Source of the DNA: Anaerolineales bacterium
Lineage (GTDB): Bacteria > Chloroflexota > Anaerolineae > Anaerolineales > Villigracilaceae
Reading direction: 5' to 3'
NCBI GenBank assembly: GCA_023382575.1
Contig: JAHDWC010000015.1
Location: 3,009 to 37,653, forward strand
DNA length: 34,645 nt
Shown: piece by piece, positions 2,808-32,671 of the stretch
Layout: every line of letters starts with the position of its first letter
How positions within the stretch are numbered: the first letter of the stretch is position 1
Made by a program: the position numbers and the translations under genes
Notes under the pieces: model-generated
Database searches by the model: none
The model's input: the letters and a program-made list of their open reading frames with translations, nothing else
Told to the model about the DNA's origin: nothing

Positions 2808-3512
2808 ATGAACACTCTACTGCACGTCCAATCCCCGTATACCCAACCGCGCCTCAAGACCATGCCGCTGCGCGAACAGCCCGCCTATCGCGTCACTCAG
2901 GATGCGACATCCTGCAACCAAACCGAGTTGCTCGCCGCCCTGATCGGCGGGCAGAAACAGATCGAGATCGCCCAGGACCTGCTGGCGCATTTCGGGGACG
3001 ACATCCGCCGCATTTATCAAGCCCATCCGCAGGAATTGGCCAGGGTGAAGGGCATCAACCAGGCGACCGCCGTGCGCATCAAAGCTGCGCTCCATCTGGG
3101 GCTGCGTCTCAGTCTGCCAGCCGATGAACGCATCGCGATCAACTCGCCTGCCGATGCCGCCGCACTGGTGCAATCCGAGATGACGCTGCTGGAAAAGGAA
3201 CACCTGCGCGTGCTGCTGCTGGATCGCCGCAACCGTGTGTTGGAGATCGTCGAAGTCTACCAGGGCTCGGTCAACTCTTCACAGGTGCGCATCGCCGAAG
3301 TCTTCCAGCCTGCTGTCACCCGCAATGCTTGCGCGATCATCGTGGTCCACAATCATCCCTCCGGTGATCCAACCCCTTCACCCGATGATGTCGCTGTAAC
3401 CCGCGCAATGGTGCAGGCAGGCAAATTACTGGACATCGATGTGCTTGATCATCTTGTGATCGGACAGGGCAAATGGGTCAGCCTCAAGGAACGCGGGCTG
3501 GGCTTTGGGTAG
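2808..3512 (+). CDS. radC: RadC-family JAB/MPN-domain protein
   Basis: 234 residues, full length for RadC. An N-terminal helix-hairpin-helix region (LARVKGINQATAVRIKAAL, 78-96) is followed by the MPN/JAMM core. The metal motif is H181-N-H183-PSGDPTPS-P-D-D194, matching HxHx7SxxD. RadC proteins are widespread on mobile elements and phages; the molecular activity of the family is not settled, with metal-dependent hydrolase or nuclease-like roles proposed and a link to recombination. It heads a two-gene module behind a hairpin, with AAGGAG at 2797-2802. Family assignment is certain, function is not. Confidence 0.93.
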   Translation: MNTLLHVQSPYTQPRLKTMPLREQPAYRVTQDATSCNQTELLAALIGGQKQIEIAQDLLAHFGDDIRRIYQAHPQELARVKGINQATAVRIKAALHLGLRLSLPADERIAINSPADAAALVQSEMTLLEKEHLRVLLLDRRNRVLEIVEVYQGSVNSSQVRIAEVFQPAVTRNACAIIVVHNHPSGDPTPSPDDVAVTRAMVQAGKLLDIDVLDHLVIGQGKWVSLKERGLGFG

Positions 3513-3520
3513 GGGGAATT

Positions 3521-3883
3521 ATGCAACTGACTCTCGATCTGACTTTTACTCTTGCGCCATCTCGCAAACGATTGCAAGTCACCACTTGGTTGGATGCTGG
3601 CTGGGCAACTGCCTGCCTGGGCTTCACCAAGCAGGTGGAGATCAGCCAGTCCCTGAATGATGCCCTGCAACATGGCAATGAGGACGATCATGACCAGCAG
3701 CTCTACGACGCGCTCTGGCTTGCCCATCACCATCTGGCGCTTGCGCAACGTCCCTCCCTTTCCTTCACCTTCGATTATCTCCACGATGACAAAGTCAAAG
3801 GTCGATATGTGGAATATCACTTGTGCCTGCATGTGGAGGAAACCAAAGAGTTGATATTGCTGGGGCGGATACAGGATTTCTAA
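3521..3883 (+). CDS. 120-residue hypothetical protein
   Basis: ATG 3521 lies 8 nt after the radC stop, with AGGGGG between as ribosome site. The product (MQLTLDLTFTLAPSRKRLQV...) is soluble, rich in His and Leu in its centre (LAHHHLALAQR) and mainly beta at its N-terminus. No family is recognised. It is followed at once by a strong terminator. The frame also extends upstream into radC, but that start would overlap radC without a ribosome site. Confidence 0.6.
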   Translation: MQLTLDLTFTLAPSRKRLQVTTWLDAGWATACLGFTKQVEISQSLNDALQHGNEDDHDQQLYDALWLAHHHLALAQRPSLSFTFDYLHDDKVKGRYVEYHLCLHVEETKELILLGRIQDF

Positions 3884-3920
3884 AAAAGGATGTGAGCCTC
3901 AACGAGGCTCACATCCTTTT
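3884..3920. terminator. Bidirectional intrinsic terminator between convergent genes
   Basis: AAAAGGATGTGAGCCTC and its complement flank an AAC loop; the right arm ends in CTTTT and the left begins AAAA, so it can stop transcripts from both sides. It separates the plus-strand radC module from the minus-strand anti-sigma gene. Confidence 0.85.
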
Positions 3921-3953
3921 CGCTTCATCACCCATCTAGGATGGTGGTCAATA

Positions 3954-4817
3954 TTACGGAATAGATTCTGCCAAATGAAGCAAATCCTGCTTGGTCATTG
4001 TCGTTGATACCGTGATCAAGGAATACGTCCTTCCCTCGTTTTCCCAAATCAGTGTCAACCCATTTGTTCCATCGTCGAATGACTTCCACCGCGAGGGATT
4101 CCATGTTTGAACCGGGCCGGACAGATCTGCAATGCCCATAATTCCATGAAAAAACACAGCAGGTTGATCATGTACCGTGAGCACTTCCTGTTTATTTTCC
4201 GGCCTAACCGTGATGTATATTGCAAGCGTGCAATCGGATCTTCGATCGTGCAGCAAATCATCCGGGTCATGGAATTGACCGTTCAAGCATGAGCCTTGCA
4301 TAACTTCAAGTTGGATCAATTCCCCGATTTCATTTTCCCACTGAAACAACGCAGACGATGGGGGTGTCTCGATAATCGAGGCATAGTACAGGGCCGCCTG
4401 CTCTTGAAGGACATAACCGGAGGGAACCCAGCCTGGAAGTTTCGCGAAGAAGGGGTGGTCGCTGGAGATCCTGTCGGGACTTAATGGACTCCACACCATC
4501 GAATACGACACGCTCTCTTCTGCAGGTTGTGTATTCGGAGGTTCATCACTGACAAGAACTGTAACACCTCGAACCGTTATCTTCTCAATGATATCGTGCA
4601 TGACCGTAAGAGCGGTAACCCGGGCAGTTGGTGACACCATCAGGATCAAAGTGATCAGACACAGCGTTGCCACTGCAATCGTAGCGATCCGTTTCGCAGC
4701 CTGATGTTGCTGGATGACAGGATGATCTTCCTCGCCTTGCATAAGTTTTGTATACAAGGAGCGGGCAAACTCCGGTGATGGGGATTGGTACATCAGGTGA
4801 ATAAAATCGTCGTTCAT
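3954..4817 (-). CDS. Membrane-anchored anti-sigma factor-like protein (DUF4367-type)
   Basis: 287 residues from ATG 4817, which overlaps the sigma gene's stop (ATGA) and has GGGAG 8-9 nt upstream; an ATG 15 nt earlier lies inside the sigma gene. A short cytoplasmic N-terminus carrying acidic and helical segments precedes one membrane helix at about 44-60 (IATIAVATLCLITLILMV), then a large outer domain. The end, LIWENEGRTYSLITVSTTMTKQDLLHLAESI (read as two halves), has the strand-plus-helix pattern of DUF4367, found in anti-sigma factors. Partner of the ECF sigma factor upstream: it would hold the sigma factor at the membrane until a signal. No ZAS-type zinc motif is visible. Role inferred from context. 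Confidence 0.7.
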   Translation of the reverse strand: MNDDFIHLMYQSPSPEFARSLYTKLMQGEEDHPVIQQHQAAKRIATIAVATLCLITLILMVSPTARVTALTVMHDIIEKITVRGVTVLVSDEPPNTQPAEESVSYSMVWSPLSPDRISSDHPFFAKLPGWVPSGYVLQEQAALYYASIIETPPSSALFQWENEIGELIQLEVMQGSCLNGQFHDPDDLLHDRRSDCTLAIYITVRPENKQEVLTVHDQPAVFFHGIMGIADLSGPVQTWNPSRWKSFDDGTNGLTLIWENEGRTYSLITVSTTMTKQDLLHLAESIP

Positions 4818-5350
4818 GATCGTTTCTCCCATGCAGTACGTAATTGCTGCATAACACGGTGAAGAATGGTGCCGACATTGGATTCGCTTATGCCCTGGAG
4901 CTGGGCGATCTTGCGATTGGTAAGACCCGCACCGTATTTGAGCGCCACCAGTTCGCGGTCACGATCCGATAGCTGACCAAGCAGCATTGAAAGTTTTTCG
5001 ATGTCCGAACGTCGCTGGACCAAACTCTCCAAGGGTTCATCATCGGATACGTTGACAGCATTTTCGAGCGAGACCTCGTCTCGTGCTCTTCGAAAATAAT
5101 CGGATGCCAGGTTCCTGGCGATCGTGAATAACCAGGTTGAGAATGCGGACAGGTCGTTCCGATATTGGTGGCGATTCTTCCAGGCTTTCTCGAAAGTTTC
5201 AGCAGTCAAATCCTCAGCCAGTCGGGCATCGCCGACATGATAGCGGAAGTAGTTGTAGATACGGGGCAATTCGGTGCGATATACAGCTTCCCAGTCTGCT
5301 TTCCTGATGGCAAGGAGTGTTTTTTCCCAAAAACGAGGTGAGTTCGTCAT
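4814..5350 (-). CDS. ECF-type RNA polymerase sigma factor
   Basis: 178 residues. Region 2: YNYFRYHVGDARLAEDLTAE and FEKAWKNRHQYRN, FSTWLFTIARNLASDYFRR (about 32-88), the usual core-binding and -10 recognition helices. Region 4: LSDRDRELVALKYGAGLTNRKIA and ISESNVGTILHRVMQQLR (about 127-172), the helix-turn-helix for -35 recognition. The gene overlaps the anti-sigma gene by ATGA. No Shine-Dalgarno precedes ATG 5350, and a TATAAT lies 8 nt upstream, suggesting a leaderless message. Sigma factors of this group usually control their own operon and a membrane-stress or extracytoplasmic regulon. Confidence 0.93.
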   Translation of the reverse strand: MTNSPRFWEKTLLAIRKADWEAVYRTELPRIYNYFRYHVGDARLAEDLTAETFEKAWKNRHQYRNDLSAFSTWLFTIARNLASDYFRRARDEVSLENAVNVSDDEPLESLVQRRSDIEKLSMLLGQLSDRDRELVALKYGAGLTNRKIAQLQGISESNVGTILHRVMQQLRTAWEKRS

Positions 5351-5358
5351 TCTATAAA

Positions 5359-5364
5359 ATTATA
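5359..5364 (-). promoter_or_regulatory. Candidate -10 element of a leaderless sigma-factor transcript
   Basis: On the minus strand TATAAT (5364 to 5359) stands 8 nt before the sigma ATG at 5350, and there is no ribosome site between. This is the spacing seen for leaderless promoters. No good -35 box is visible; GTGATA at the 17-nt position is weak. Confidence 0.4.
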
Positions 5365-5510
5365 CGTTTTCGCCGGGAGAGTATCACATTGCAAAATATG
5401 TCCAGGAAAACCCTGCGAAATTTCAACAGAAAATCCCTTCCTGAACTACCGTTTGCACTTAGCAGTAATCTCAATAAACGAACGAACTTGACCTTGCTGA
5501 AGCCCTATCC

Positions 5511-5556
5511 AGCGGGCAAGACATGGCTTCCAAAGAGCCATGTCTTGCCCGCTTTT
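5511..5556 (+). terminator. Intrinsic terminator/attenuator hairpin with no gene before it
   Basis: AGCGGGCAAGACATGGCT and its exact complement (18 bp) around a 7-nt loop, ending in TTTT. No plus-strand gene lies within 1.6 kb upstream, so it either ends readthrough or works as an attenuator for the downstream gene. AGAGGAG follows at 5566. Confidence 0.75.
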
Positions 5557-5579
5557 AGTCTGTTCAGAGGAGTAATCAT

Positions 5580-5591
5580 ATGCCGTATTAA
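5580..5591 (+). other. Three-codon minigene behind a strong RBS
   Basis: AGAGGAG (5566-5572) sits 7 nt before ATG CCG TAT TAA. The spacing from hairpin to ATG (27 nt) matches the other hairpin-RBS-ATG cassettes. It may be a leader peptide, or the start of a lost gene whose frame closed. Confidence 0.35.
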
Positions 5592-5670
5592 ATCGAAATC
5601 AAAATGTCCTTTACACGAACCTACAGATCTTTCTCCCATATATCCAACCCACAATTACAAGGAGCAAATT

Positions 5671-6435
5671 ATGTCTTACACATCCGAATACAAACGCATC
5701 CAACCCGTGCTCGACCTGGCACGCGAATTGGACATCGCCAGCAACCCCGATCCCGCCGCGATCTTCGAAGCAGGCAGCGGCGGCTTCCAAGTCTGGTGTA
5801 CGCCGCAGGATCACCCCAAAGGCTGGGATGGCATCGTGATGACTCCCGGCGCCTTCTCCAAGCCCTGCGAGTATGTGGGCAGTGTGCAATGGAAATGGGA
5901 GGACGAGTCCATTGTGGCGCTGGAGATCGAGACCAGTGCTTACGCCCTGGCGGATCAGAAACCGGACGAGTATTGCAACCTGACCGCCATTCCCCGCGAT
6001 TTCCACCGCCGCACGATCTTCAACCGCGATGCCGATATTGAGTGGCTCAAGGAGAAGATCACCTGGCTATTCGCCAAAGCCGGTGTGCCCCTGCCGCCCT
6101 TTGAATATCGACAGGCGCCGCTCTCCGAGCTGGGTCCCTATCTGCTCGCCCACTACCTTTCCGAGAGCGATGAATATGTGGTGATCGTCTCGCCGGAGCT
6201 CGACCCGGAGGAATTTTGCAAACCGGGCTATCACCTGGCGCGCACGCTCCCGATCTGGAAGGCGGGCGACTTCCCCGCCGATGTCATCCTGCGTCCGGAT
6301 CATGAGTACCAGGAAGTGGACGACGAACCCGATGAGGGACCGCTGGTGGAACAGTACGAGAACGCCGCGCGCCTCGGCGATGACAACTGGCTGGACTACG
6401 CCTACGAAGACCGCATCAGCGGTTGGGATGAATAG
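5671..6435 (+). CDS. 254-residue hypothetical protein
   Basis: ATG 5671 is preceded by AAGGAG; the upstream extension of the frame is not credible coding sequence. The soluble product begins MSYTSEYKRIQPVLDLAREL. It is acidic near the C-terminus (EYQEVDDEPDEGPLVEQYEN) and rich in Trp and Pro. No recognisable motif, membrane segment or signal peptide. It forms a module of its own: hairpins lie before and 10 nt after it. Codon use matches the neighbouring replication genes, so it belongs to the same element. Confidence 0.65.
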   Translation: MSYTSEYKRIQPVLDLARELDIASNPDPAAIFEAGSGGFQVWCTPQDHPKGWDGIVMTPGAFSKPCEYVGSVQWKWEDESIVALEIETSAYALADQKPDEYCNLTAIPRDFHRRTIFNRDADIEWLKEKITWLFAKAGVPLPPFEYRQAPLSELGPYLLAHYLSESDEYVVIVSPELDPEEFCKPGYHLARTLPIWKAGDFPADVILRPDHEYQEVDDEPDEGPLVEQYENAARLGDDNWLDYAYEDRISGWDE

Positions 6436-9756: not shown

Positions 9757-9792
9757 ATCCCCCATGCTATTCGGTGTGGGGGATTTTATTTT
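9757..9792 (+). terminator. Hairpin with T-rich tail before an RBS
   Basis: ATCCCCCA (9757-9764) pairs with TGGGGGAT (9777-9784) around a 12-nt loop, then TTTATTTT. AAGGAG at 9797, ATG at 9809, 25 nt after the stem. This is the shortest stem of the set. Confidence 0.7.
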
Positions 9793-9808
9793 CCAAAAGG
9801 AGATTACC

Positions 9809-12800
9809 ATGCGTCCCCCCGCTCTAGAACGACTCGGGTTTTACCCAACAGCAGACCACGTCGCTGAATTGCTCAAAACCTATTTCAAGCCTGCCGACTC
9901 TGGCAGGCTTCTTGATCCCTGTGCCGGTGAAGGCACAGCCGCATCCATCCTGGCAAAAGCCTTGAACTGCCAGAGTTGGGGTGCGGAATTATCGCCAGTA
10001 CGCGCCGCACTGGCTGCTGAGAATATGGATCGCCTCTTCAATACGCCCTGGCAATCCTGTTATCTGACCAGCGAGTCCATCACCCTGTTATTCCTCAATC
10101 CGCCCTATAGCCATGATCGCCTGGGCGACCAGAAACGTTTGGAATTGGAGTTCCTGAAATCCACCACGCCCAAACTGGTCCGTGGCGGCGTTCTGGTCTA
10201 CATCGTTCCGCATCCGTTGCTGCGCGATCTTGATGTCGCGTCCCATCTGGCTGGGTATTACGAGAACGTCCGTATCTACCGCTATCCTGAGACCGGATTC
10301 AACCAGGTCATCGTGCTGGCGACCAAGCGAGTGAAGTACAAGATCCCATCCTACGAGGAAATTCATCAGGTGCAGGCATGGGCAGACGTGGAACCACCCA
10401 TGTTGGTGGAAGTGGAAGCACCGTTGTATGAACTGCTTCCTGCCACTGATAAAGGATCAGGAGGACAACCCATCCGCTTTTCCCGCATGGACTGGCAGCC
10501 GGAAGAGATCGTGGATGCGACACAAAAACGTGGATTGCATTCTTCAAAGGAATGGCTGGACCTGCTCAATCCTTCGCGCGGCTTGGGTGAGTTGAAGCAA
10601 CCGGTCATGCCCTTAAAGAAGGGTCACATCGCGATGTTGATGGCATCCGGCATGATGGGAACGCTGCGGCTGACCGATGAGGATGGCAAACCGATGTTGG
10701 TCAAAGGGCGGGTCGTGAAAGTCACGGAGAAGGTGGAGGAGAACACAGACAAGAAAGGCAATGTGACCTCCGAAGTCTTCCGTGACCGTTTCGTTTCCAC
10801 AGTTGCCATCCTGCGCCAAAGCGGGATCGAGATCATTGATACCGTTGATCCGCTTTCCAAGTTCATGCACAAGTATGGCGATCAGATCGGGGCGCACATC
10901 CTGTCCACCTATCGACCGTTGTACAACTTTGATCCGACTCCGGAAGAGATTGTTATCTTGGACTCTTTGGGTACAAAGCGAAAGCCATTGCCTGGGCAGG
11001 AGAAGGCGGGGCTGTTGCCGGCGCAGAGACATACAGCAACAGCGATTGCTCGATCCATACGCAGGAATGGTGTTGGCAACATTCAGGGCGAGATGGGAGC
11101 GGGAAAGGCGTCCAAAATTACAGCAAAGGTTTATACACCGACAGGATATAAACTCATGGGCGATATACAAGTCGGTGATATGGTAATCAATCCAAATGGT
11201 GGATATGCCAATGTAATTGGTGTATTTCCTCAAGGCGTGACGGATATTTATAGGGTAACTTTTAGTGATGGCAGCTATACAGAATGTACGGCCGAACATC
11301 TTTGGAAAGTTTACTCGCCGCTCAGGAAATGGAAAGGGAAACCAAGCTATGTAAAACCCCTATATCAACTTATGGATGAACCTTTAGCACATTCAAACTC
11401 AGGCAATTACCAGGTATTTATACCAATGGTTAAGCCTGTTGAGTTTCAGAAGAAATCATTACCTATTCATCCATATCTGCTTGGCGTACTCCTAGGTGAT
11501 GGTGGTTTGTCAACAAAGTCAATCTCACTAACATCTGCAGATGACGAGATACTGGATTATGTTAGAGAGTGTCTGCCTCATCCAGTACAACTAAGGCCCA
11601 ATGGAAATAAATATAGTTGGAGACTGACTGTAGGACATATAGGTACTGGAAATCCCTTACTCGACTGTATCAGGGATTTGGGCTTAATGGGACATAAATC
11701 TTACGAAAAGTTTATTCCGAATGATTATCTATATTCAGATAGCGCTGATCGTTTGGCTTTGCTTCAAGGTTTGCTGGATACTGATGGCACAGTAGCAAAC
11801 TCTATAGCTGCAGATTACTTAACCACCTCTTTGGAATTGGCAAAAGGAGTAAAGGAAATAGTTCAATCGCTTGGAGGTACCGTATCAGCCAGTTTCAAAC
11901 ATCCAATATATACGCATAACGGCGAAAAAATGAATGGAAGACTCGGTTATCGTCTCTATATAAAACTCCCATCAGATATCATGCCATTTCGCCTGTCCCG
12001 AAAGGCAAATGCTTATCGTCCACAAGGCAAATATGAACCTCATCGTTCAATCGTAAAGATTGAGCATGTCGGCCGAGATTTCGCCCAGTGCATCATGCTG
12101 GACAGTGAAAATCAACTCTATGTGACTGATGAATACATTGTTACCCACAACACAACCATTGGCTCTGGGGTAGCGGAACTACTGGGTGCATATCCTGCCA
12201 TAGTACTCTGCCCACCTCATCTCGTTCCAAAATGGATTCGTGAGATCGAAGAGACCATACCTGATGCGAAGGCTATGGAACTAAGTCGTATCGGTCGCAA
12301 CGCCGATGATCCAGGTGACATCAATGATGTCCGTAGGTTTCTGGACCTCTATAAAACTGGTGAACTTGGCAAAAAGGCTGTTGCAGTCATCGCTCACACA
12401 TCTGCAAAATATGGCGCTGGCTGGGAACATGCAGTGCTTCGAAAGAAGTTTGTAGATGAGGATGACGGGCAGGTATTTGAAGCATTATGCTGTCCAGTTT
12501 GTGGTACCCCGATCCAAATCAATTTACCAGGTGGGTTTGTCAAGACCGCGACCACTCTTGATGATCTGGGTGATAAGCGTCGTTTCTGTGATGCAGAGAT
12601 TTCCGGCTATGAACTGGATGAACACAAGCGCCTGAGGCGTGATGAATATGGCAACCCGGTATGGGGCAGGCGGAAGTGTGGCACGCCCATGTTTCAATTT
12701 ACCGGGCGGCGCTGGGCAATTGCTGACTATATTGCAAAACACGCAAGAGGTGAATTCAAATTGTTGGTCACCGATGAACTCCATCAAATGGCTGCCAAAG

Positions 12801-14173
12801 CTAGCGACAGGGGCATAGCGTTCCATCAGCTCGTAAAAGCAACGAAATACGCGTTGACACTGACAGGTACATTCTTCGGCGGAAAGAGCACTTCCATCTT
12901 CTGGTTGCTTCACCGCTTGAGCGCCAGTGTTCGCAAGGATTTTGCCTTCAACGATGAAAAACGTTGGGCACGGTTATATGGTGTGTTGGAGATGACCCGC
13001 AAGAGCAAACGCGCGGAAGAGGACGGGGATGAAGATGGTTTCACTGGAAATCGGCGGTATCAGAATCAGGCAAAGGAACAACCTGGGATTTCGCCTGCCA
13101 TTGTGAACCGTCTATTGGATACTACGGTGTTCCTGTCCTTGAAGGATTTGGGATTGGCATTGCCGCATTATGCCGAGGAAGTGGTTACATTGGAAATGAC
13201 GGATGAACAAAGCAGCCAATATCGCGTGATGGCGAAGAAGTTGTATGACCTTGCCATCAAGAACCGGCGCTATCTCTCGACCTGGCTGCAATGGACTCTG
13301 GCGCGTCCAAATTCCGCCTTCCGCGATGAGGTTGTTGAGGTGGATGAAGTTAATCAGAAAGGAGAAGTCATTCGACGAAAAGAGCTGATGGAGTTGCCGG
13401 CGGTGGTTGATGGCGAAGCCATGCCCAAGGAATCCTGGTTGGTGGATTTCTGTCGTGCGGAGCGCCAGCAGGGACGCAAGGTGTTGATCTACCTGCGCCA
13501 GACTGGAACACGCGATATTCAGGATCGCATCTTGAAAGTGCTGCGGGATGGTGGTGTGCGGGCGGAAGTTTTAACCCGTGGCGTCAATCCGCGCAAACGT
13601 GAGGAATGGATTGCCAAACGGGTGGTTGGTCTGGATGCCCTGGTGGTCAATCCGAAGTTGGTGGAAACTGGGCTTGATTTAGTTGCCTTCTCATCCGTGG
13701 TCTTTGCGGAGATTGAATATTCACTTTACACCTTGTGGCAGGCAGTCCGCAGAGTCTGGCGGTTGGGGCAGACCAAACCAGTCAAGGCGATCTTCTCAGT
13801 TTACAGTGAAGCGATGGAAGCAAGGGCGCTGGCATTGATGGGTCAGAAGATGAAGGCAGCCCAACTCTTGTACGGGGACGAGGTAGGCGGGGCAATCGTC
13901 CCAGAAGAAGACGGCGACATTCTCATGAAGCTGGCACGCGAAGCGCTGGAGTCGGCAGATATTCCTGATCTGCAATCGCTCTTTGCAGATGAGATGGTTG
14001 TTTCCAATTCACCAATGGGTTGCCCGACAGTTCCAAGTGCGCCGTTACCAGTCCCTGAAATGCCCAAGACGGTTTCCTGGTCTGATTGGATGACAAACAA
14101 AGGCGTTGCAGGAAGATTTGCTGGCAGATCACGTCCCAAACAGGCGAGGCAAAATCAAGTATCCCTTTTCTAA
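9809..14173 (+). CDS. Methyltransferase-Snf2-like helicase fusion interrupted by an intein
   Basis: 1454 residues before splicing, 1106 after. ATG 9809 has AAGGAG upstream; an earlier ATG at 9764 lies within the hairpin. The N-terminal domain is a SAM-dependent methyltransferase: DPCAGEGTA at 36-44 binds SAM and NPPY at 97-100 is the motif of N6-adenine DNA methylases. The helicase has Walker A GEMGAGK-TT (split by the intein at 434-781), CPPHLVPKWIREIEE as motif Ia, DELH near 989, LTLTGTF as motif III, and RRVWRLGQ near 1314, the Snf2 type motif VI. Between Ia and DELH lies a Cys cluster (CPVCGTP, FCDAE, KCGTPMF) that could bind zinc. Such proteins occur on phages and integrative elements; action on DNA is likely, substrate unknown. 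Confidence 0.88.
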   Translation: MRPPALERLGFYPTADHVAELLKTYFKPADSGRLLDPCAGEGTAASILAKALNCQSWGAELSPVRAALAAENMDRLFNTPWQSCYLTSESITLLFLNPPYSHDRLGDQKRLELEFLKSTTPKLVRGGVLVYIVPHPLLRDLDVASHLAGYYENVRIYRYPETGFNQVIVLATKRVKYKIPSYEEIHQVQAWADVEPPMLVEVEAPLYELLPATDKGSGGQPIRFSRMDWQPEEIVDATQKRGLHSSKEWLDLLNPSRGLGELKQPVMPLKKGHIAMLMASGMMGTLRLTDEDGKPMLVKGRVVKVTEKVEENTDKKGNVTSEVFRDRFVSTVAILRQSGIEIIDTVDPLSKFMHKYGDQIGAHILSTYRPLYNFDPTPEEIVILDSLGTKRKPLPGQEKAGLLPAQRHTATAIARSIRRNGVGNIQGEMGAGKASKITAKVYTPTGYKLMGDIQVGDMVINPNGGYANVIGVFPQGVTDIYRVTFSDGSYTECTAEHLWKVYSPLRKWKGKPSYVKPLYQLMDEPLAHSNSGNYQVFIPMVKPVEFQKKSLPIHPYLLGVLLGDGGLSTKSISLTSADDEILDYVRECLPHPVQLRPNGNKYSWRLTVGHIGTGNPLLDCIRDLGLMGHKSYEKFIPNDYLYSDSADRLALLQGLLDTDGTVANSIAADYLTTSLELAKGVKEIVQSLGGTVSASFKHPIYTHNGEKMNGRLGYRLYIKLPSDIMPFRLSRKANAYRPQGKYEPHRSIVKIEHVGRDFAQCIMLDSENQLYVTDEYIVTHNTTIGSGVAELLGAYPAIVLCPPHLVPKWIREIEETIPDAKAMELSRIGRNADDPGDINDVRRFLDLYKTGELGKKAVAVIAHTSAKYGAGWEHAVLRKKFVDEDDGQVFEALCCPVCGTPIQINLPGGFVKTATTLDDLGDKRRFCDAEISGYELDEHKRLRRDEYGNPVWGRRKCGTPMFQFTGRRWAIADYIAKHARGEFKLLVTDELHQMAAKASDRGIAFHQLVKATKYALTLTGTFFGGKSTSIFWLLHRLSASVRKDFAFNDEKRWARLYGVLEMTRKSKRAEEDGDEDGFTGNRRYQNQAKEQPGISPAIVNRLLDTTVFLSLKDLGLALPHYAEEVVTLEMTDEQSSQYRVMAKKLYDLAIKNRRYLSTWLQWTLARPNSAFRDEVVEVDEVNQKGEVIRRKELMELPAVVDGEAMPKESWLVDFCRAERQQGRKVLIYLRQTGTRDIQDRILKVLRDGGVRAEVLTRGVNPRKREEWIAKRVVGLDALVVNPKLVETGLDLVAFSSVVFAEIEYSLYTLWQAVRRVWRLGQTKPVKAIFSVYSEAMEARALALMGQKMKAAQLLYGDEVGGAIVPEEDGDILMKLAREALESADIPDLQSLFADEMVVSNSPMGCPTVPSAPLPVPEMPKTVSWSDWMTNKGVAGRFAGRSRPKQARQNQVSLF
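11108..12151 (+). mobile_element. Class 3-type intein with LAGLIDADG homing endonuclease in the helicase Walker A motif
   Basis: 348 residues lying between Lys and Thr of GAGK/TT. It starts with Ala (ASKITAKVYTPTGYKLMG) instead of Cys or Ser, and ends VTHN before Thr+1. The class 3 triad is in place: Trp in block B (CTAEHLWKV, protein residue 499), Cys in block F (FAQCIML, 761) and Thr in block G (THN, 779). In such inteins the block F Cys, not residue 1, attacks first. Two endonuclease motifs, LLGVLLGDGG near 557 and LLQGLLDTDGT near 651, keep Asp in the metal positions, so homing is probably still possible. Base composition is clearly more AT-rich than the flanking extein sequence, fitting a later arrival. 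The Snf2 intein of Deinococcus radiodurans is the best-known relative by site and class. Confidence 0.92.
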
Positions 14174-21079: not shown

Positions 21080-21250
21080 TTACGAGAGGAGTTTCCCCTC
21101 AAACGCGGACTTGAGCATGGACTGCCGCAACCGCCCCACCCGTGATAGGGACGCCACCGGCGTGGACTCGACCCCAGCCGCAATCGACAGCCGTGGGACG
21201 TTGCAGTATTTCCAGATGCGTTGGACGATGGTGGAAGATTGATTACTCAT
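21080..21250 (-). CDS. 56-residue chimeric micro-ORF: HsdM start fused to HsdS end
   Basis: ATG 21250 overlaps the kinase gene's stop as ATGA. Residues 1-18, MSNQSSTIVQRIWKYCNV, correspond to HsdM residues 1-18 (MSTQSSTIVQRVWNYCNV); residues 20-53 correspond to the HsdS C-terminus (RLSIAAGVEST, then SLSRVGRLRQSMLKSAFEG). The frame is preserved across the joint and ends TAA at 21080. At DNA level the HsdM part differs at roughly one base in four from the intact hsdM here, so it came from another allele. It is the trace of a deleted hsdM-hsdS pair; whether the peptide is made is unknown. Confidence 0.7.
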   Translation of the reverse strand: MSNQSSTIVQRIWKYCNVPRLSIAAGVESTPVASLSRVGRLRQSMLKSAFEGKLLS

Positions 21251-24200
21251 TTAAATAACTCTTTAATAAAGTTTTCTGCCAGGGCGATCAAGAGCCCACC
21301 AGCACCGATGGTAAATATCGATGTAAAAAACTCCGGCTTTATCATAAGTGGAGCAAACTCATCTTTCTTCAATTCGCTCTCCATAACGCCACTAGCGTAA
21401 CTTCCATATTTTTTTAATATGTATTCCCTCAACAAAGATTGTCCAATAGCAAAAGGTATTTGATTTAGAAAGACCAATAACAAAAGAGCTATTAAAACAA
21501 TCCATTTCAGGGATAAGATATGATTGATTGAAGAGAAAAAGATGTAAGCAAAACTTACCAATAGAAAGATATTATGAGCGGAGTCATACAAATACATCGA
21601 TCTGATTTCTGTAGTTGTCTTAGCAAAACCAAGAGCGCTCTCTTTCTCCTCTCTGTTTTTTTCAAGGTCAGAAGTATTAAATACCATCGTAACATCCGGA
21701 GTGTATTCTCCAGCGTAGACAGGATTTATCATGCGCACAAATAATTCCACAACAAAATACCCAAGGATTAGCATGGCAAATAACGAGACAAATAAAATAC
21801 TGTACTCCAAGTACTCAAATACTTTGGCATCTTTGTAGATACCAAAGATAACTCCTAGAAATATCCCTGAGGGTAACGAAACATATAAAATCCTTTCCCG
21901 TTGGAAAATCTGATCAAACCGAAGCAGATACTCTTGCATAACTTGATATTGATTGATCTCCTTCTCCAACCTAACCGCTTTACGCGATGATTTCATCTTT
22001 GCCTTTAGCGACTTCTGCTTGCCATCTATTTCCCTTCTAATTTGGTCAATTTGATTTTCCCTGAGATAGTCAAGCAAGTGACCACCCCCATCTAAAATAG
22101 CGGCAATTGCAATAGCAAAAAACATCCATGTGCCATCGCCCTGCAGTTTGAACATGAATAATGCAACGATGGATAAGACTATCGAAAACATAAGAATTTC
22201 TGTAATTGATTGGGAAACCCTGCTTTTATATTCTGTGATTTTAGCTGCCCACATGGGTATTATTGTAAATAAAATTGCAACGAAAACACCCTTCAAAAGG
22301 GTAATCGCACCCTGCCAAAAGGGAGATAAAACGATAGGGGGCAATGGTATCGCAACTGGCTGCGAAGTCGAAGAATCATTGAGCAAGGCTATCGAACAAA
22401 TCATGAGCGCAACTACAAACGAGATGATTGTTAAAAATCTGCCAATGCGGCCAATTATGGGAGGTGGCGCAGAAGGTGGTGGAGCCGCTTTAGGCGGAGG
22501 CGCATATTCGGGATCTTTGTCAGTTCTCTTATATTTTTGTATTATTTGTTGAACTAATAGATCGTAGTCACCAGGTTTGAATAAATCTATTTGATACCAA
22601 TTACGCAACCTTAGTCGAGGCTGGAAATCCTCTATTCTGGAAATAATTGTTAAACTGTTGCGTTTTGATGCCAACTCAATTATTTCTTCCAATAAATGCC
22701 ACATTTCCGAATCAGATTGTCTGGATAGAACAACGACAATTACATCTGCACTTTGATGAAAATTCGATATTCCACTAAGCCAATCCATTTGTGAATAAAG
22801 TGACTTTGTCTCCAGTCCCCTAAATCCTTCTTGGATGAGTGCGTGGGAGAGATATTCCAGTCTCTTTCTATCATTCCATGCACTTATTAGGGATATACGT
22901 AATTTTTCAGATTTTCCCTCCTGTTCCCAAGTAGACCTAAGAAGCGAAATAGTAGCTATAGGTTTCGGTTGTGGAGTTGCTGCCGCAACGTCCGTTGGAT
23001 ATGGATTAGGAACTCCCTCAGGCTGAAAGGGGTCTGGTTCCAGTAATGGATTTGGTGCTTTATCGGTAGGCTCTGGATACACCCACAATGGTCTCAATTT
23101 TTCCCTAAAAATTTCAAGCATCCCCAATCTTTTAATAATCTCCAAAGTGCTTTCAGACTTAAGAATATCCTTTAGCGACGAAATTTGATCTTCGGTTAAG
23201 TCTCTAGTATTGTTGGTCACGACAGCAGAAATTAGCACGGAATCCCATAAGGATAACCCGCTGCTCAAACAGTCCCTTAATATGGACATGAAGTTCTCAT
23301 CAAGCAGCGCATGACCGAATTGGTCATGTATCAACTCTATTTTCTCATCCACTGATTTGTTGTCAGATACAGTTGCATATTGGCACTGGATTTCAACAAC
23401 AAAATCATGATAAAGATTTATATGCTTAAGAAAACGTACCTCACTATCATTCTTTAGAATTTCCTGACTCCAACGAATTATGAGTTCTGTCCAAGTAAAT
23501 CTTTTGCTGTGCAGGATGAAGGCTAATGTACCGGCATGTAAAAAATCCATTTCCGCATAGCATTCCCTTATTGTGCTAAAAACTTTTCCTTCGTCAAAAT
23601 CCTGGCGATCCAATAACTGCTTAATTTGTCCGATAAAAACAATAGCCTCTTCTGCTTTTCGCTGAATATCTGAAGGACAATTTTTCAAGTCGGTGTTTTC
23701 TATATATTTCTTGAGTAACCCCAGCCGATGAAATACTATTATCCAATGCAAAGAATCAGGTCTAGCTAGAATGAAGTCTATTGTGTTTTCCGATTGTAAA
23801 TAATGACGGTCAACTAATATGGCAGCTGATTCTGCTGCTTGCTTTACGGGCATTCCATTATCATGTAATGTAGTGAAATTGACAATGAAGTTTTTATCAG
23901 TTATATATTGATATAGACTTTTTGAAATCCAACTTTGCTCACTTGAGCTAAATGAAATGTCCGGATAATATAAATTCAATATATAAGGCAATATCTGTTC
24001 GTAAAGCCCCAACTTTTGTAACGTCTCTACTTCTGAAGGAGAAGATATTACTTCGTGGAGATATTTGCTGTAATTATCTGATAACTGAATGCCCTTTTCG
24101 CTTGATAAAGCAGCAATAATCCCAGCATGAAGGAACGGCATCTTATTTTCATGGCACTTAAGAAATACCTGGCGAAACTTGCTGTCATTGAAAAAGTCAT

Positions 24201-25092
24201 AAAATTCTTCAAATAAACGAAAAAGATCATCCAAATACTCAAAAGAGGATATTTTGTTTATTTCATTAGTTAATCCTTGAATCCCCCCTTCAAGCTGAGA
24301 CAGAAATTCTTCAACAACCCGTTCGTTTGTTTCAGGATCACCAATGAAATTTGGAAAGTCCAGTGCTATAAAATCATCGAGTTTGAACAATTTATAAAAT
24401 CTTTGAAAATCATAAATAAACGCCCACCAATCTGAATACACCGAAAATCGATTTTGTTCCATGTTCTCAGATAGAAATTCAGAATTCCCCCAATCAATCA
24501 AAATAATTTCTTGGGCTTTGAAATCCCAAAAAATATGTTTAGGTTTTAGATCAACCCAAAGAACCCCGATATCCCCACTATTCTGGTTTGGACCCAAATG
24601 ATGAATAGTTTTTAGGTATTGCGAAACACCATAAAACGATAATAGCAGAAGTAGATTAAAGGAATTTTTTATGTAAACAAAATCATCTAGAAAAGGATTG
24701 GCATGTTGAAATGTTTCAATTTCCTCCCAAGTCCTTGAAAGGATATCTAAGTCAAAACCTGAAATGTGCTCCAGCACTATAAAGCAATCATCACTACTTT
24801 TAACCGAAACCGAAGCTTCGTCAATCAAATTAACTGCTCGAACAATAATATTGCTTTTTTCTAGAGCAACTTTAATGCCATTAATTTTCCTAAGAATCTC
24901 CCCTTCTAGTTTAATTTGATGCACTTGGTAATGAGCCAAAAGAGGGTTGTATGATGATGGGCGCTTAAGGATAGCCTTTTCACCAGTGTGCAATCCACAG
25001 ACTATATACACCACCCCAGCATCTCCCTCGGCGATTTTCTTTTCAAATTCCCAAGGTTGTTTTTTACCCATGATAGTATTTTTATTGTGCAT
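21247..25092 (-). CDS. Protein kinase-like / TIR-like / multi-pass membrane protein
   Basis: 1281 residues. Residues 15-205 look like an eukaryotic-type kinase: glycine loop AEGDAGVV (21-28), Lys 43 in AILKR, VDLKPKHIFWD (180-190) for the catalytic loop and DWG (200-202) for DFG. The loop carries His 186 where kinases have Asn, so activity is uncertain. A long helical region follows to about 690. About 730-845 resembles a TIR fold (LRISLISAWNDRKRLEYLSH, ADVIVVVLSRQSDSEMWHLL). Then a proline-rich linker (APPPKAAPPPSAPPP) and about nine membrane helices with a coiled coil between (IRREIDGKQKSLKAKMKSS). AAAGGA supports ATG 25092. It sits directly after hsdS, and its stop overlaps the HsdM-HsdS micro-ORF. 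Domain calls are by eye; the TIR call is the weaker. Confidence 0.7.
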   Translation of the reverse strand: MHNKNTIMGKKQPWEFEKKIAEGDAGVVYIVCGLHTGEKAILKRPSSYNPLLAHYQVHQIKLEGEILRKINGIKVALEKSNIIVRAVNLIDEASVSVKSSDDCFIVLEHISGFDLDILSRTWEEIETFQHANPFLDDFVYIKNSFNLLLLLSFYGVSQYLKTIHHLGPNQNSGDIGVLWVDLKPKHIFWDFKAQEIILIDWGNSEFLSENMEQNRFSVYSDWWAFIYDFQRFYKLFKLDDFIALDFPNFIGDPETNERVVEEFLSQLEGGIQGLTNEINKISSFEYLDDLFRLFEEFYDFFNDSKFRQVFLKCHENKMPFLHAGIIAALSSEKGIQLSDNYSKYLHEVISSPSEVETLQKLGLYEQILPYILNLYYPDISFSSSEQSWISKSLYQYITDKNFIVNFTTLHDNGMPVKQAAESAAILVDRHYLQSENTIDFILARPDSLHWIIVFHRLGLLKKYIENTDLKNCPSDIQRKAEEAIVFIGQIKQLLDRQDFDEGKVFSTIRECYAEMDFLHAGTLAFILHSKRFTWTELIIRWSQEILKNDSEVRFLKHINLYHDFVVEIQCQYATVSDNKSVDEKIELIHDQFGHALLDENFMSILRDCLSSGLSLWDSVLISAVVTNNTRDLTEDQISSLKDILKSESTLEIIKRLGMLEIFREKLRPLWVYPEPTDKAPNPLLEPDPFQPEGVPNPYPTDVAAATPQPKPIATISLLRSTWEQEGKSEKLRISLISAWNDRKRLEYLSHALIQEGFRGLETKSLYSQMDWLSGISNFHQSADVIVVVLSRQSDSEMWHLLEEIIELASKRNSLTIISRIEDFQPRLRLRNWYQIDLFKPGDYDLLVQQIIQKYKRTDKDPEYAPPPKAAPPPSAPPPIIGRIGRFLTIISFVVALMICSIALLNDSSTSQPVAIPLPPIVLSPFWQGAITLLKGVFVAILFTIIPMWAAKITEYKSRVSQSITEILMFSIVLSIVALFMFKLQGDGTWMFFAIAIAAILDGGGHLLDYLRENQIDQIRREIDGKQKSLKAKMKSSRKAVRLEKEINQYQVMQEYLLRFDQIFQRERILYVSLPSGIFLGVIFGIYKDAKVFEYLEYSILFVSLFAMLILGYFVVELFVRMINPVYAGEYTPDVTMVFNTSDLEKNREEKESALGFAKTTTEIRSMYLYDSAHNIFLLVSFAYIFFSSINHILSLKWIVLIALLLLVFLNQIPFAIGQSLLREYILKKYGSYASGVMESELKKDEFAPLMIKPEFFTSIFTIGAGGLLIALAENFIKELFK

Positions 25093-29536: not shown

Positions 29537-32500
29537 TCACTGTAAGTTTCTTTTTTTGTTATCCCCATTGATTAAAATTGATCTTGCCGAAAGGCGTAAA
29601 TGCCGCTCATTTACAAGCTGAGAGGTTATATCATCCCTCCAATCCATGTGTTTGGCATTAAATATATATTTTAATTCATGAGAAATCAACGAATAAACTT
29701 GATCCAACACAGGGATCCTTGATGGATATCGCGTTTGTATTACCCACGCCTCTGGATCAACCAAGGGCACACCATCAATGTCAGTACTGAGTCTAAAATA
29801 ACCGCAACCACTGTCTCCTCCCCCTTGAGAATAGCCTTCTCCATATAGCGTTTTGAAATTCAGTCTTTGTATCAATGAATTATTTTGAAAGTTAGTAACA
29901 ATTTTTAGCGGAGGAACCTTTTCTAGATTCGGCGTCACTATGTAGGAAAGAGAAGGGAAATCGGAATGACTGGATCTCATGGCTTGTACAAGGACAAGTT
30001 TTTCGATGTTTTTAAGAAATCGAGAATAATTAACCAATGAAGGAAAGTTCGCAGTAAAAAGCAGTTTGTAGTTATCAATTATTATTGGGATAAGTCGATT
30101 TAAATCATCGATAATGATATCAAAACCTTCACTGTGGAACCTCCATAGATCGTCCCGGGAATACTTGAGACGGCCCAAGGCTTCATCACTCTTCATCTGG
30201 CTCAAAGTAAAAAGAACAGAAAGGAGTTCATTTGAGCGATGAAAATAGCTCGGATACAAATTGTCTCGGGTTTTCAGCCTGGAACTAAACTTGATCAGTA
30301 GATCATTGACCTGCTTTGATAAGTGAGATATTTTCGCATTACCCAAGTCTTCGATATCCTTATAACCTAAAATCTTCCAATAGCGTTCGTGAGGAAGGTC
30401 ATCACCTTGCACCCAAAGAGTAGGGTTGTCTGACAAGATTGCATATATTCTTTCACGAAGCAGATCCGGTGTGCTTGTTTCATCAAGTAGTCGGCTTGAC
30501 AATGCAGTAGAAACTTCACGGATTAGGTGATTAAAAGATGCCTTTTGTGGATATTCAGCAAATTCATGAATTCCACCCATGTAAAATGACCCCACAGGCA
30601 TTAAATCATGATTTAATCTATCGCTGATAGGACCTTTAAATAATTGCGCAACTAATGCTGGATCATCTACACTTATAAGAAGTTGTGGATAAGCTGGCGT
30701 ACATCCTCTAAACATTTGATGATGCTCTCCGATCAAAACAACGCCAAGGGGTATATCAGCATAAGGCATGGTTGACTGCTTCAGCTTATCGAAGAAATTG
30801 TCACGAACATAATTGTAAAAAAGCAAGTAATTGCTGATGTGCTCCAAGGGAATTGGCGACTTCTTATAGGAGTCAATCCCCTTGGAGCCGGTAATAATTT
30901 GCGTAAACAAAGGAAAATTTTGCTTGATAAGCTCTATAAGAGTTGTATGAGCAATATCTTGATTAACCGTAGAAAAATAAAAATCCAATGCTTCAAGTCC
31001 AACCGATGTTTTTACAAGCTCTAGTATGCCGGCAACTTGTTTGTTGGGGGCTAGTAAATGCAGCTTTTGTACTTTGAAAATATAGATATATAGAAAAAAC
31101 TTGTTATATTCGTAACCTATATTTTCTTGTTCATCTGAAAAAGTTTTGCTTAGTATGCCAAGTCTAAACAAGCCCTGCAGTGCTTTTTCGAAACCTTCGT
31201 TCCAGGTAATATCCAGTAGGATTTTATCTTTTGGCAAACTCCTAATTCCAGTTTCAAAAATCAGTGATGCTAACCTGGTTAGGATAATTTCGCCCATGTT
31301 TGGGCTTTCAAGAGGTTCTAACTTCCTCCTCAAATATAGATCGAACAAATCCAGGCTTGATATAGCTGTTGGTAATTTCTCTTTATTCTCACTGTAAATT
31401 TCCGAAACAAACCTCAACATTAATGGATTTCGGCATTCTTGTAAAAGCTCTCCGTAAAAATCACCCATTAATGAAAAAGCGGATTTATATTTGTTCGTCG
31501 CCTCTTTCAGCTCGTCAGCGTCCAATTCATCAAGATGAACCCCGATCTTGCTTGAATCTGGAGATGTGGTACGTTTCTCCATCGCGGTGTTCGTTGGTGT
31601 TATGCTTTCAGCCAAGACGTTGAATGATTGATTTCCATCTGTCACTATGCTTGACCAATCAAATGATTTACAACTCAAAACCAACCTGATATTAGGGAAT
31701 TGTTGAATTTTGGACGCAAAATCCAATAATTCATTCTTTATTTGTTTTATGCCAGATGGGTTTTCGTCTATTGCATCTAAAAAGATAAACAATTTCTTCC
31801 CAGCGCTTTGGGCGATGGTATCTAATCGACTTAGGATTTTCACAACATTTGAATCCCTGTGGAATTCCCAAATAAAATCATTTCTAATCGAATCTATTAA
31901 TCCTTTCGTGAACCTCCCAGTGGAATAAAAAAGCGCAAAGTTTGATAAAGCAATAGCCTCAACCTTGGCGCACATAAAATTTGTTTTTCCATACCCAGAT
32001 GGCCCCACGGTCGCAAAGACAGGGAGTTCACCCTTCAGCCATTTTGCAAATGCATGTTCCAGACGCTGCCTTTCTACATAAAGTTCTGGGATGTACTTCT
32101 TGTTTTTTTGTATGTCGCTTTTCAGATCTATTAAAGCATTTGCAACTTGTTGTCGACAAAACTTGTCCACAGTGCTTGGGTTTATTGCGATTAATGTTTT
32201 TGCCGCCTCGTACAACATATCATCAGCTATCGCCGACGCTGAAATTTTTTGGCCGCTTTTGTTCCAAATGGAGTTTTGTGGATTGTCAACCTGAGATACC
32301 CCCTCTGCCAGCACATCGTAAACTTTAGTTTCTTTCCCATTGGTAACTATGGCAAATGGAGCAATAGAAGACAATAACCTGGCATAAGAAATAGCTTGCT
32401 GCGCATCTTCATCTGTCAATCCATGCGAAGGTGCTTTTGTTTCAATAATCGCTAAAGGCTTGCCGTTTCTCGCAATTAATATATCGCTTCTCCCACCTGC

Positions 32501-32671
32501 TACCTTTTTGTCAATATTTACTGCGTTGTGCCCAAGCTTAATGGAAAAATAATCTTCGCAGCTTATCTCGTCTGCATCGAATCCTAATTCTGAGCAATAA
32601 GAAATTACCATTGCTCTCAAGTCTTCTTCAGAATCAATCTCAAACTGTGAAGGAATATCTTTTATGCCCAT
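29537..32671 (-). CDS. PD-(D/E)xK nuclease fused to a STAND/NACHT-like NTPase
   Basis: 1044 residues. The N-terminus (20-120) is an HsdR_N-type nuclease domain: Asp 63 in GRSDILIA, Glu 77 and Lys 79 in IIETKAPS. Next is a P-loop NTPase: Walker A GPSGYGKT at 223-230 and Walker B KLFIFLDAIDE ending at 303, where LDAIDE is the pattern of STAND proteins; VLSCKSFDW near 335 fits a sensor region. The remaining 600 residues are helical and could bind a trigger. Family knowledge: anti-phage Avs proteins join effector nucleases to STAND modules. It sits between a restriction operon and a CRISPR array. No partner gene is visible, so it probably works alone. Confidence 0.75.
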   Translation of the reverse strand: MGIKDIPSQFEIDSEEDLRAMVISYCSELGFDADEISCEDYFSIKLGHNAVNIDKKVAGGRSDILIARNGKPLAIIETKAPSHGLTDEDAQQAISYARLLSSIAPFAIVTNGKETKVYDVLAEGVSQVDNPQNSIWNKSGQKISASAIADDMLYEAAKTLIAINPSTVDKFCRQQVANALIDLKSDIQKNKKYIPELYVERQRLEHAFAKWLKGELPVFATVGPSGYGKTNFMCAKVEAIALSNFALFYSTGRFTKGLIDSIRNDFIWEFHRDSNVVKILSRLDTIAQSAGKKLFIFLDAIDENPSGIKQIKNELLDFASKIQQFPNIRLVLSCKSFDWSSIVTDGNQSFNVLAESITPTNTAMEKRTTSPDSSKIGVHLDELDADELKEATNKYKSAFSLMGDFYGELLQECRNPLMLRFVSEIYSENKEKLPTAISSLDLFDLYLRRKLEPLESPNMGEIILTRLASLIFETGIRSLPKDKILLDITWNEGFEKALQGLFRLGILSKTFSDEQENIGYEYNKFFLYIYIFKVQKLHLLAPNKQVAGILELVKTSVGLEALDFYFSTVNQDIAHTTLIELIKQNFPLFTQIITGSKGIDSYKKSPIPLEHISNYLLFYNYVRDNFFDKLKQSTMPYADIPLGVVLIGEHHQMFRGCTPAYPQLLISVDDPALVAQLFKGPISDRLNHDLMPVGSFYMGGIHEFAEYPQKASFNHLIREVSTALSSRLLDETSTPDLLRERIYAILSDNPTLWVQGDDLPHERYWKILGYKDIEDLGNAKISHLSKQVNDLLIKFSSRLKTRDNLYPSYFHRSNELLSVLFTLSQMKSDEALGRLKYSRDDLWRFHSEGFDIIIDDLNRLIPIIIDNYKLLFTANFPSLVNYSRFLKNIEKLVLVQAMRSSHSDFPSLSYIVTPNLEKVPPLKIVTNFQNNSLIQRLNFKTLYGEGYSQGGGDSGCGYFRLSTDIDGVPLVDPEAWVIQTRYPSRIPVLDQVYSLISHELKYIFNAKHMDWRDDITSQLVNERHLRLSARSILINGDNKKRNLQ

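Follow-up and report, generated by a model that had tools for sequence, protein, structure and literature searches.

The window analysed here, a 34,645-nucleotide stretch of DNA from a member of the Anaerolineales, carries a plus-strand reading frame at 9764-14173 that is open throughout and encodes 1469 amino acids. Its product combines a DUF6094 methyltransferase with an SNF2-like helicase, as judged by Pfam and PHROG: the DUF6094 match (Pfam E 8e-19) covers part of the profile, Helicase_C matched at E 4.9e-7 (Pfam) and the PHROG DNA helicase family at E 4.4e-29. We use "SNF2-like" as the safer name because the SNF2-related domain scored 18.2 bits, below its cut-off of 24.9. The helicase is interrupted at 11108-12151 by a stop-free, in-frame insert of 348 residues, which splits the P-loop between its Lys and Thr (GEMGAGK/TTIGSG), has Ala as its first residue and ends in THN. 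The N-extein (9764-11107, plus strand) comprises the methyltransferase (about 9830-10357) and the start of the helicase up to the P-loop Lys; a second Met at 9809 (MRPPAL...), 15 residues into the frame, may be its real start. The C-extein (12152-14173, plus strand) supplies the remaining helicase, with Helicase_C at about 13433-13768. Junctions were set by insert-free relatives, as 36 of 45 distinct helicase loci have an uninterrupted P-loop of the form xGK(T/S). The initial annotation had described a class 3 intein in this P-loop; its location and coordinates agree to the base with the translated frame and with the intein-free relatives, and the intein-free alleles that it suggested looking for are these 36 empty loci.

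Upstream of the helicase lie genes for a protein that resembles single-strand-binding proteins (identified by eye), one that resembles DNA polymerase III beta (below the Pfam cut-offs) and RadC, together with an ECF-type sigma factor on the opposite strand, while a type I restriction-modification set lies downstream, also on the opposite strand. Rfam gave no match at the gathering score within the window, and no tRNA was found there. Across 48 genome-contig loci, orf7649, orf8263, orf9346 and DUF6011 were all found beside the helicase in 12, five of which are occupied (L022, L024, L025, L029 and L032) and seven empty; HsdM accompanied the helicase in one of the 48 (L035). We infer that the helicase neighbourhood is a mobile element. 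Two other minus-strand genes of the window were noted in passing. The first (29537-32671, 1044 aa) has an HSDR_N-type nuclease start and weak similarity to Avs2 (PADLOC E 6.8e-14), and its product is possibly an Avs-like defence NTPase; the second (21247-25092, 1281 aa), in the type I restriction-modification region, has weak kinase-like and TIR-like matches, both below Pfam cut-offs, and gave no PADLOC match at E 1e-5.

Numbered from its own first residue, the insert has A1, W66, C328, T346, H347 and N348, followed by Thr at +1. All of its parts lie on the plus strand, and the boundaries of the three domains are approximate. The N-terminal HINT splicing domain runs from A1 to about residue 110 (11108-11437) and includes block B, with His64 (B:10) and Trp66 (B:12) at 11297-11305. 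The C-terminal HINT part (12023-12151) holds blocks F and G, with Cys328 (F:4, 12089-12091), the predicted initiating nucleophile, and Thr346-His347-Asn348 (G:5-G:7, 12143-12151) at the C-terminal splice junction. Between the two lies a LAGLIDADG homing endonuclease domain (about residues 111-305, 11438-12022; LAGLIDADG_3, PF14528, E 7.6e-10 in Pfam), with Asp131 in its first motif (LLGVLLGDG; 11498-11500) and Asp226 in its second (LLQGLLDTDG; 11783-11785), both of which we take to be catalytic from knowledge of the LAGLIDADG family. The Trp at B:12, Cys at F:4 and Thr at G:5 are those given for class 3 inteins in excerpts of PMC7664689, PMC5050341 and PMC7891396, and position 1 is Ala rather than Cys, Ser or Thr. 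This set of Trp, Cys and Thr (WCT) is invariant in an alignment of eight alleles from relatives of the helicase, the window included, whose first residue is Ala in six, Cys in one (L029) and Ser in one (L018). The residues named initially as W499, C761 and T779, counted from the second Met, are W66, C328 and T346, so the class 3 set was read correctly, as were the block-F Cys, which aligns in all eight alleles, and the complete endonuclease with its intact Asp residues. As a side observation, L029 (4966) and L018 (466) combine the full WCT with a Cys or Ser as first residue, a natural mix of class 1 and class 3 features; Tori and Perler reportedly described in 2011 that WCT inteins with Cys1 or Ser1 remain able to use the class 3 route.

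That class 3 inteins come from phages is a published proposal. Relatives of this intein are found on phages and plasmids: tblastn matched 593 phage and 39 plasmid records, all at less than 60% identity. Relatives are also encoded on 545 viral contigs, which were picked out by patterns taken from N-terminal sequence of the eight alleles; a single-protein query gave no pattern match there and the eight-allele alignment did. Every one of the best 80 of these 545 has Cys F:4, Thr G:5, the terminal His and Asn and both LAGLIDADG Asp residues, a degree of conservation that rules out a chance motif. The full WCT is present in 72 of the best 80, the other eight having Phe for Trp, and two of the 80 contain an internal stop; deviations at the Trp are put at 6.1% in PMC7891396. 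In 76 of the same 80, GK directly precedes the insert, and the +1 residue across the 80 is Thr (78) or Ser (2). Eleven phage and plasmid relatives examined by eye all have HLW, the block-F Cys and THN, and all follow GK (the matched start in L083 falls a few residues late), with Thr at +1 in ten and Ser in one; the hosts named in their records are helicases, terminases, DnaB and ATPases, one being "hypothetical" and one unannotated. Because the GK/T site and the WCT prevail among these viral and phage relatives, both the site and the class are ordinary for phage inteins, and Lys/Thr insertion in the P-loop is called classic in an excerpt of PMC5050341. The initial description of a rare splicing type is not supported by these counts or by the 1,701 class 3 inteins counted in nr in 2020, 82.5% of them with LAGLIDADG motifs, according to PMC7891396, and was rejected.

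An AlphaFold2 model built from 43 related sequences (36 viral sequences were tried and one with a stop left out) reached a pLDDT of 93.3 and a pTM of 0.91 and superseded a poor model from eight sequences (pLDDT 60.7). The predicted fold is a HINT domain plus a LAGLIDADG domain similar to I-DmoI and PI-SceI. Foldseek placed inteins with an endonuclease, such as TliVMA, PI-SceI and PhoVMA, in all of its first 14 ranks (E 3.1e-17 to 2.2e-13), the best two being TliVMA (3.1e-17) and PI-SceI (3.4e-17). The first mini-inteins to appear are of class 3, namely M. smegmatis DnaB (3.4e-6) and MchDnaB1 (4.1e-6; structures 6bs8 and 6riy), with the class 1 gp41-1 close behind (5.1e-6) and I-DmoI endonucleases after it. 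By sequence, the best match of solved structure is gp41-1 (1.5e-11 for an engineered variant, 7.9e-10 for the natural one), with the DnaB inteins of class 3 behind it (3.9e-5). As the gp41-1 scores show that fold and overall sequence do not fix the class, the assignment rests on Ala1 together with the WCT.

The distribution of the intein was examined in 75 sources (74 helicase loci plus the window), of which 56 were kept at a threshold of at least 850 helicase codons and reduced to 45 distinct loci by merging near-copies. Eight of the 45 have the intein, 36 are empty and one has a group II intron. These helicases are mostly from Chloroflexota, many of them Anaerolineales; other groups account for 4 of 48 (L030, an uncultured isolate, and the MAGs L062, L065 and L066). 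The intein was found in 5 of 57 genomes of the genus, the window's own included, and occurs once in that genome (4.37 Mb, 346 contigs). On a helicase tree of 31 rows, made with codons 361-540 left out, the eight carriers required seven changes against a shuffled mean of 7.2, with 293 of 500 shuffles as low; carriers are therefore scattered, although parsimony of this kind counts changes and not gains. Occupied and empty alleles thus coexist, and the history of the intein is unlike that of its host gene.

Sequence similarity beside the insertion site was compared within a close clade of seven carriers and 15 empty alleles. Outside codons 401-520, the difference in nucleotide identity (carrier-carrier minus carrier-empty) ranged from -0.023 to 0.050, and it peaked at +0.112 in codons 441-480, a value equalled in none of 2000 label shuffles at that position and in 11 of 2000 in any window, the shuffles ignoring relatedness. 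Much of the peak comes from the first 10 codons, 449-458 (+0.297), and could also be explained by target-site or splicing constraint. The 12-codon patch that follows the site, TTIGSGVAELLG (12152-12187, plus strand), is alike in carriers and unlike in their empty sisters and is a candidate homing half-site or co-conversion tract. At codons 449-460, the carrier/empty pairs L024/L003, L071/L063, L025/L004 and L029/L035 are 0.39-0.53 identical within the pair, and the carriers are 0.82-0.85 identical to other carriers. The same contrast appears when the window is compared with L003 and L022 with L063, both comparisons reusing those empty alleles, and the carrier L032 was left out of this comparison. 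The sister pair L056/L055, in which L055 has a group II intron at this place, lacks the contrast (0.86 to the sister, 0.51 to other carriers). Together, the scattered occupancy and the flanking peak support the mobility of this intein lineage, and the contrast at the patch is predicted alike by homing with short co-conversion, by a homing-site requirement and by escape of empty alleles.

It is possible, if rather doubtful, that the shared TTIGSGV patch is instead the C-extein context required for splicing and neither a co-conversion tract nor a homing site. Most of the excess does fall in codons 449-458, adjoining the splice junction. Relatives of the same class, however, precede other C-exteins (TIETLG, TYMTSA, TSMINM and others), which would speak against such a requirement if they splice, and the third positions of conserved codons 449-500 are likewise more identical among carriers (0.600) than between carriers and empty alleles (0.471) or among empty alleles (0.556).

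A tentative and somewhat unlikely proposal is that the exon half-site is diversifying in the intein-free alleles, which would thereby escape the endonuclease. Directly after the site, 12 codons have an amino acid identity of 0.563 among the 15 empty close relatives, with only 17 of 1109 12-codon windows lower, and of 0.952 among the seven carriers. Identity in 18 distant empty alleles is 0.739 and is also below average (170 of 1109 windows lower), and part of the variability of the patch may thus be ordinary. If the proposal were true, homing drive and resistance alleles could be read directly from one gene family. Separately, we noted that the occupied L022 and the empty L041, which has unlike sequence after its P-loop, appear to share one MAG, the link being a common MAG accession prefix and isolate name.

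Composition and divergence bear on the age of the intein. It has a GC content of 0.409 and a GC3 of 0.33, against 0.541/0.629 and 0.516/0.529 for the two exteins. All eight alleles are lower in GC than their own flanks; low GC is therefore a property of the lineage and does not date the insertion, and AT-richness as proof of recency, part of the initial argument, was discarded on this ground. The other alleles are 51-82% identical to the window intein, the nearest 80-82%. Among ten pairs computed, dS is lowest in the three formed by L022, L025 and L032, and these three gave an endonuclease dN/dS of 0.118-0.155, indicating that the endonuclease is kept by purifying selection. Intein dS in these pairs is 0.47-0.64 against 1.36-2.72 for the exteins: here the intein moved after the genes had parted. 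For the window copy the contrasts are mixed: intein dS against the two extein halves is 0.85 versus 1.09/2.66 with L025 and 1.34 versus 1.35/2.41 with L032, exceeds them with L022 (1.40 versus 0.86/1.21) and is saturated with L024 (versus 0.63/1.07). Of the initial view of a recent, possibly active invader, mobility is accordingly supported for the lineage, given its scattered presence in 8 of 45 loci, the flanking peak and the dS contrast in three pairs. For the window copy recency is no more than a possibility: the nearest alleles are 80-82% identical, the dS contrasts are mixed and low GC is lineage-wide.

These data also speak to a single old insertion followed by many losses through precise deletion, with no recent homing, which we consider quite unlikely. 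Such a history would be compatible with the parsimony result, which counts changes rather than gains, and with the diversity of the lineage, whose alleles are as little as 51% identical to the window. It does not fit an intein dS below that of the exteins in three pairs, an endonuclease under purifying selection, or carrier flanks that are alike where those of their empty sisters differ.

We conclude with high confidence that the insert represents a full-length class 3 intein of the cis-splicing kind that bears a LAGLIDADG homing endonuclease. Degeneration to an insert unable to splice, which would leave the helicase dead, has a precedent in Arth_1007, a class 3 intein reported as a pseudogene in an excerpt of PMC3196547, but is very improbable here with the splice-junction and catalytic residues intact, the frame open, dN/dS well below 1 where dS is unsaturated and a high-confidence fold. 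That the insert belongs to class 1 or class 2 and resembles the WCT by coincidence is equally hard to credit: two of eight alleles begin with Cys (L029) or Ser (L018), and among solved structures the class 1 intein gp41-1 matches best by sequence, but the window has Ala1, and the block-F Cys and Thr G:5 recur in 80 of the best 80 viral relatives.

By analogy with characterized families, splicing of this class 3 intein would begin after translation with an attack by Cys328 of block F on the Lys-Ala bond that forms the N-terminal junction, leaving the N-extein bound to this Cys in a branched thioester. Transfer of the acyl group to Thr+1 would follow, and Asn348 would cyclise with the help of His347. 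Splicing would restore the P-loop GEMGAGKTTIGSG and, with it, a helicase able to bind ATP. Because the insert parts the P-loop Lys from its Thr, the unspliced protein should not bind ATP, and the precursor would remain inactive in this respect until spliced. The endonuclease is predicted to cut intein-free helicase alleles around the Lys/Thr codons, after which repair would copy the intein into the cut allele, probably together with a short piece of the adjoining exon.

The intein shares with the solved class 3 inteins, M. smegmatis DnaB1 and MchDnaB1, the WCT, the lack of a nucleophile at position 1, the THN end and the HINT fold. The solved structures matched here are short (125-131 residues), in contrast to the window intein with its full LAGLIDADG domain, and the host is an SNF2-like helicase rather than DnaB. 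The DnaB of mycobacteriophage Bethlehem is also said to hold a class 3 intein, and Brace et al. reportedly described one in 2010 in an Snf2 protein of Deinococcus radiodurans, which would be alike in class and in its Snf2-type host. The inteins of PhiPA3 gp233, phage Colt gp179 and the MetMV terminase have in common with the window a GK/T or GK/S site, the WCT and two LAGLIDADG motifs; they are 37.1-38.5% identical to it and their hosts are phage proteins. Mycobacteriophage TerL1-a inteins likewise lie between the invariant Lys and Thr of a P-loop, with a terminase as host instead (excerpt of PMC5050341). No paper on class 3 inteins of Chloroflexi was found in the open-licence PMC literature; the taxonomic range may be new within that literature, while the mechanism is already known. 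One gene family here unites class 3 residues, an intact LAGLIDADG endonuclease and close empty alleles, and homing, co-conversion of flanks and target escape could hence be tested with natural alleles.

Other elements, too, have inserted into the helicase gene of these relatives. Each of the five loci given to Rfam had a group II intron match within its insert: L055 in the P-loop (about 5252-5997), L064 near codon 295 (about 3181-5530), and L035, L061 and L021 at codons 973/974 (inserts ending at 10001, 10056 and 1503). Since the L055 intron ends one codon before the intein site, intron and intein use nearly the same P-loop position. The window's genome also has a second, C-terminal helicase piece at a contig edge (L072; G000:C201, 6471-6896, minus strand), which ends close to a codon that is the site of a group II intron in relatives; RF00029 gave no match in this genome, with 150 of 331 candidates scored.

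Another intein interrupts the DEAH motif in L063 (6628-7584) and L071 (3305-4366), the latter locus holding the class 3 P-loop intein too. It splits DE/C and has Cys1 and HN/C as in class 1 (DE/Cys1 ... HN/C), and DEAH-motif inteins are also present in the phage helicases L190, L191 and L192. Hidden in the +1 frame of the L063 and L071 inteins is an open reading frame that encodes Cys pairs resembling zinc fingers (matched weakly by Pfam) together with a DUF559 nuclease (Pfam E 2e-13 and 8e-14). A tblastn search with this hidden frame matched 40 phage records, of which three were examined (phi673, CP-T1 and Vibrio 1.088). The intein frame is open across the hidden frame in all five cases, namely L063, L071 and the three phages, the Pfam scan covering L063 and L071. 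Synonymous shuffles of the intein frame gave on average 8.5 to 13.7 stops, and none of 5000 or 3000 shuffles each was free of them. When L063 is compared with L071, identity is 69% in the hidden frame (167/242), 50% in the intein frame over the same bases (119/239) and 48% in the third frame (114/239). As identity is highest in the hidden frame, selection in these two loci sees that frame, the intein frame seemingly being just kept open.

Dassa et al. are said to have described in 2009 Vsr-like endonucleases between the halves of split inteins. No title on an endonuclease hidden in another frame of an intein was found in the open-licence PMC literature; the nearest printed case found is an HNH endonuclease hidden in a phage methylase insert that has no splicing domain (PMC11855218). 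The DEAH inteins with a hidden endonuclease possibly represent an undescribed, dual-coding intein type.
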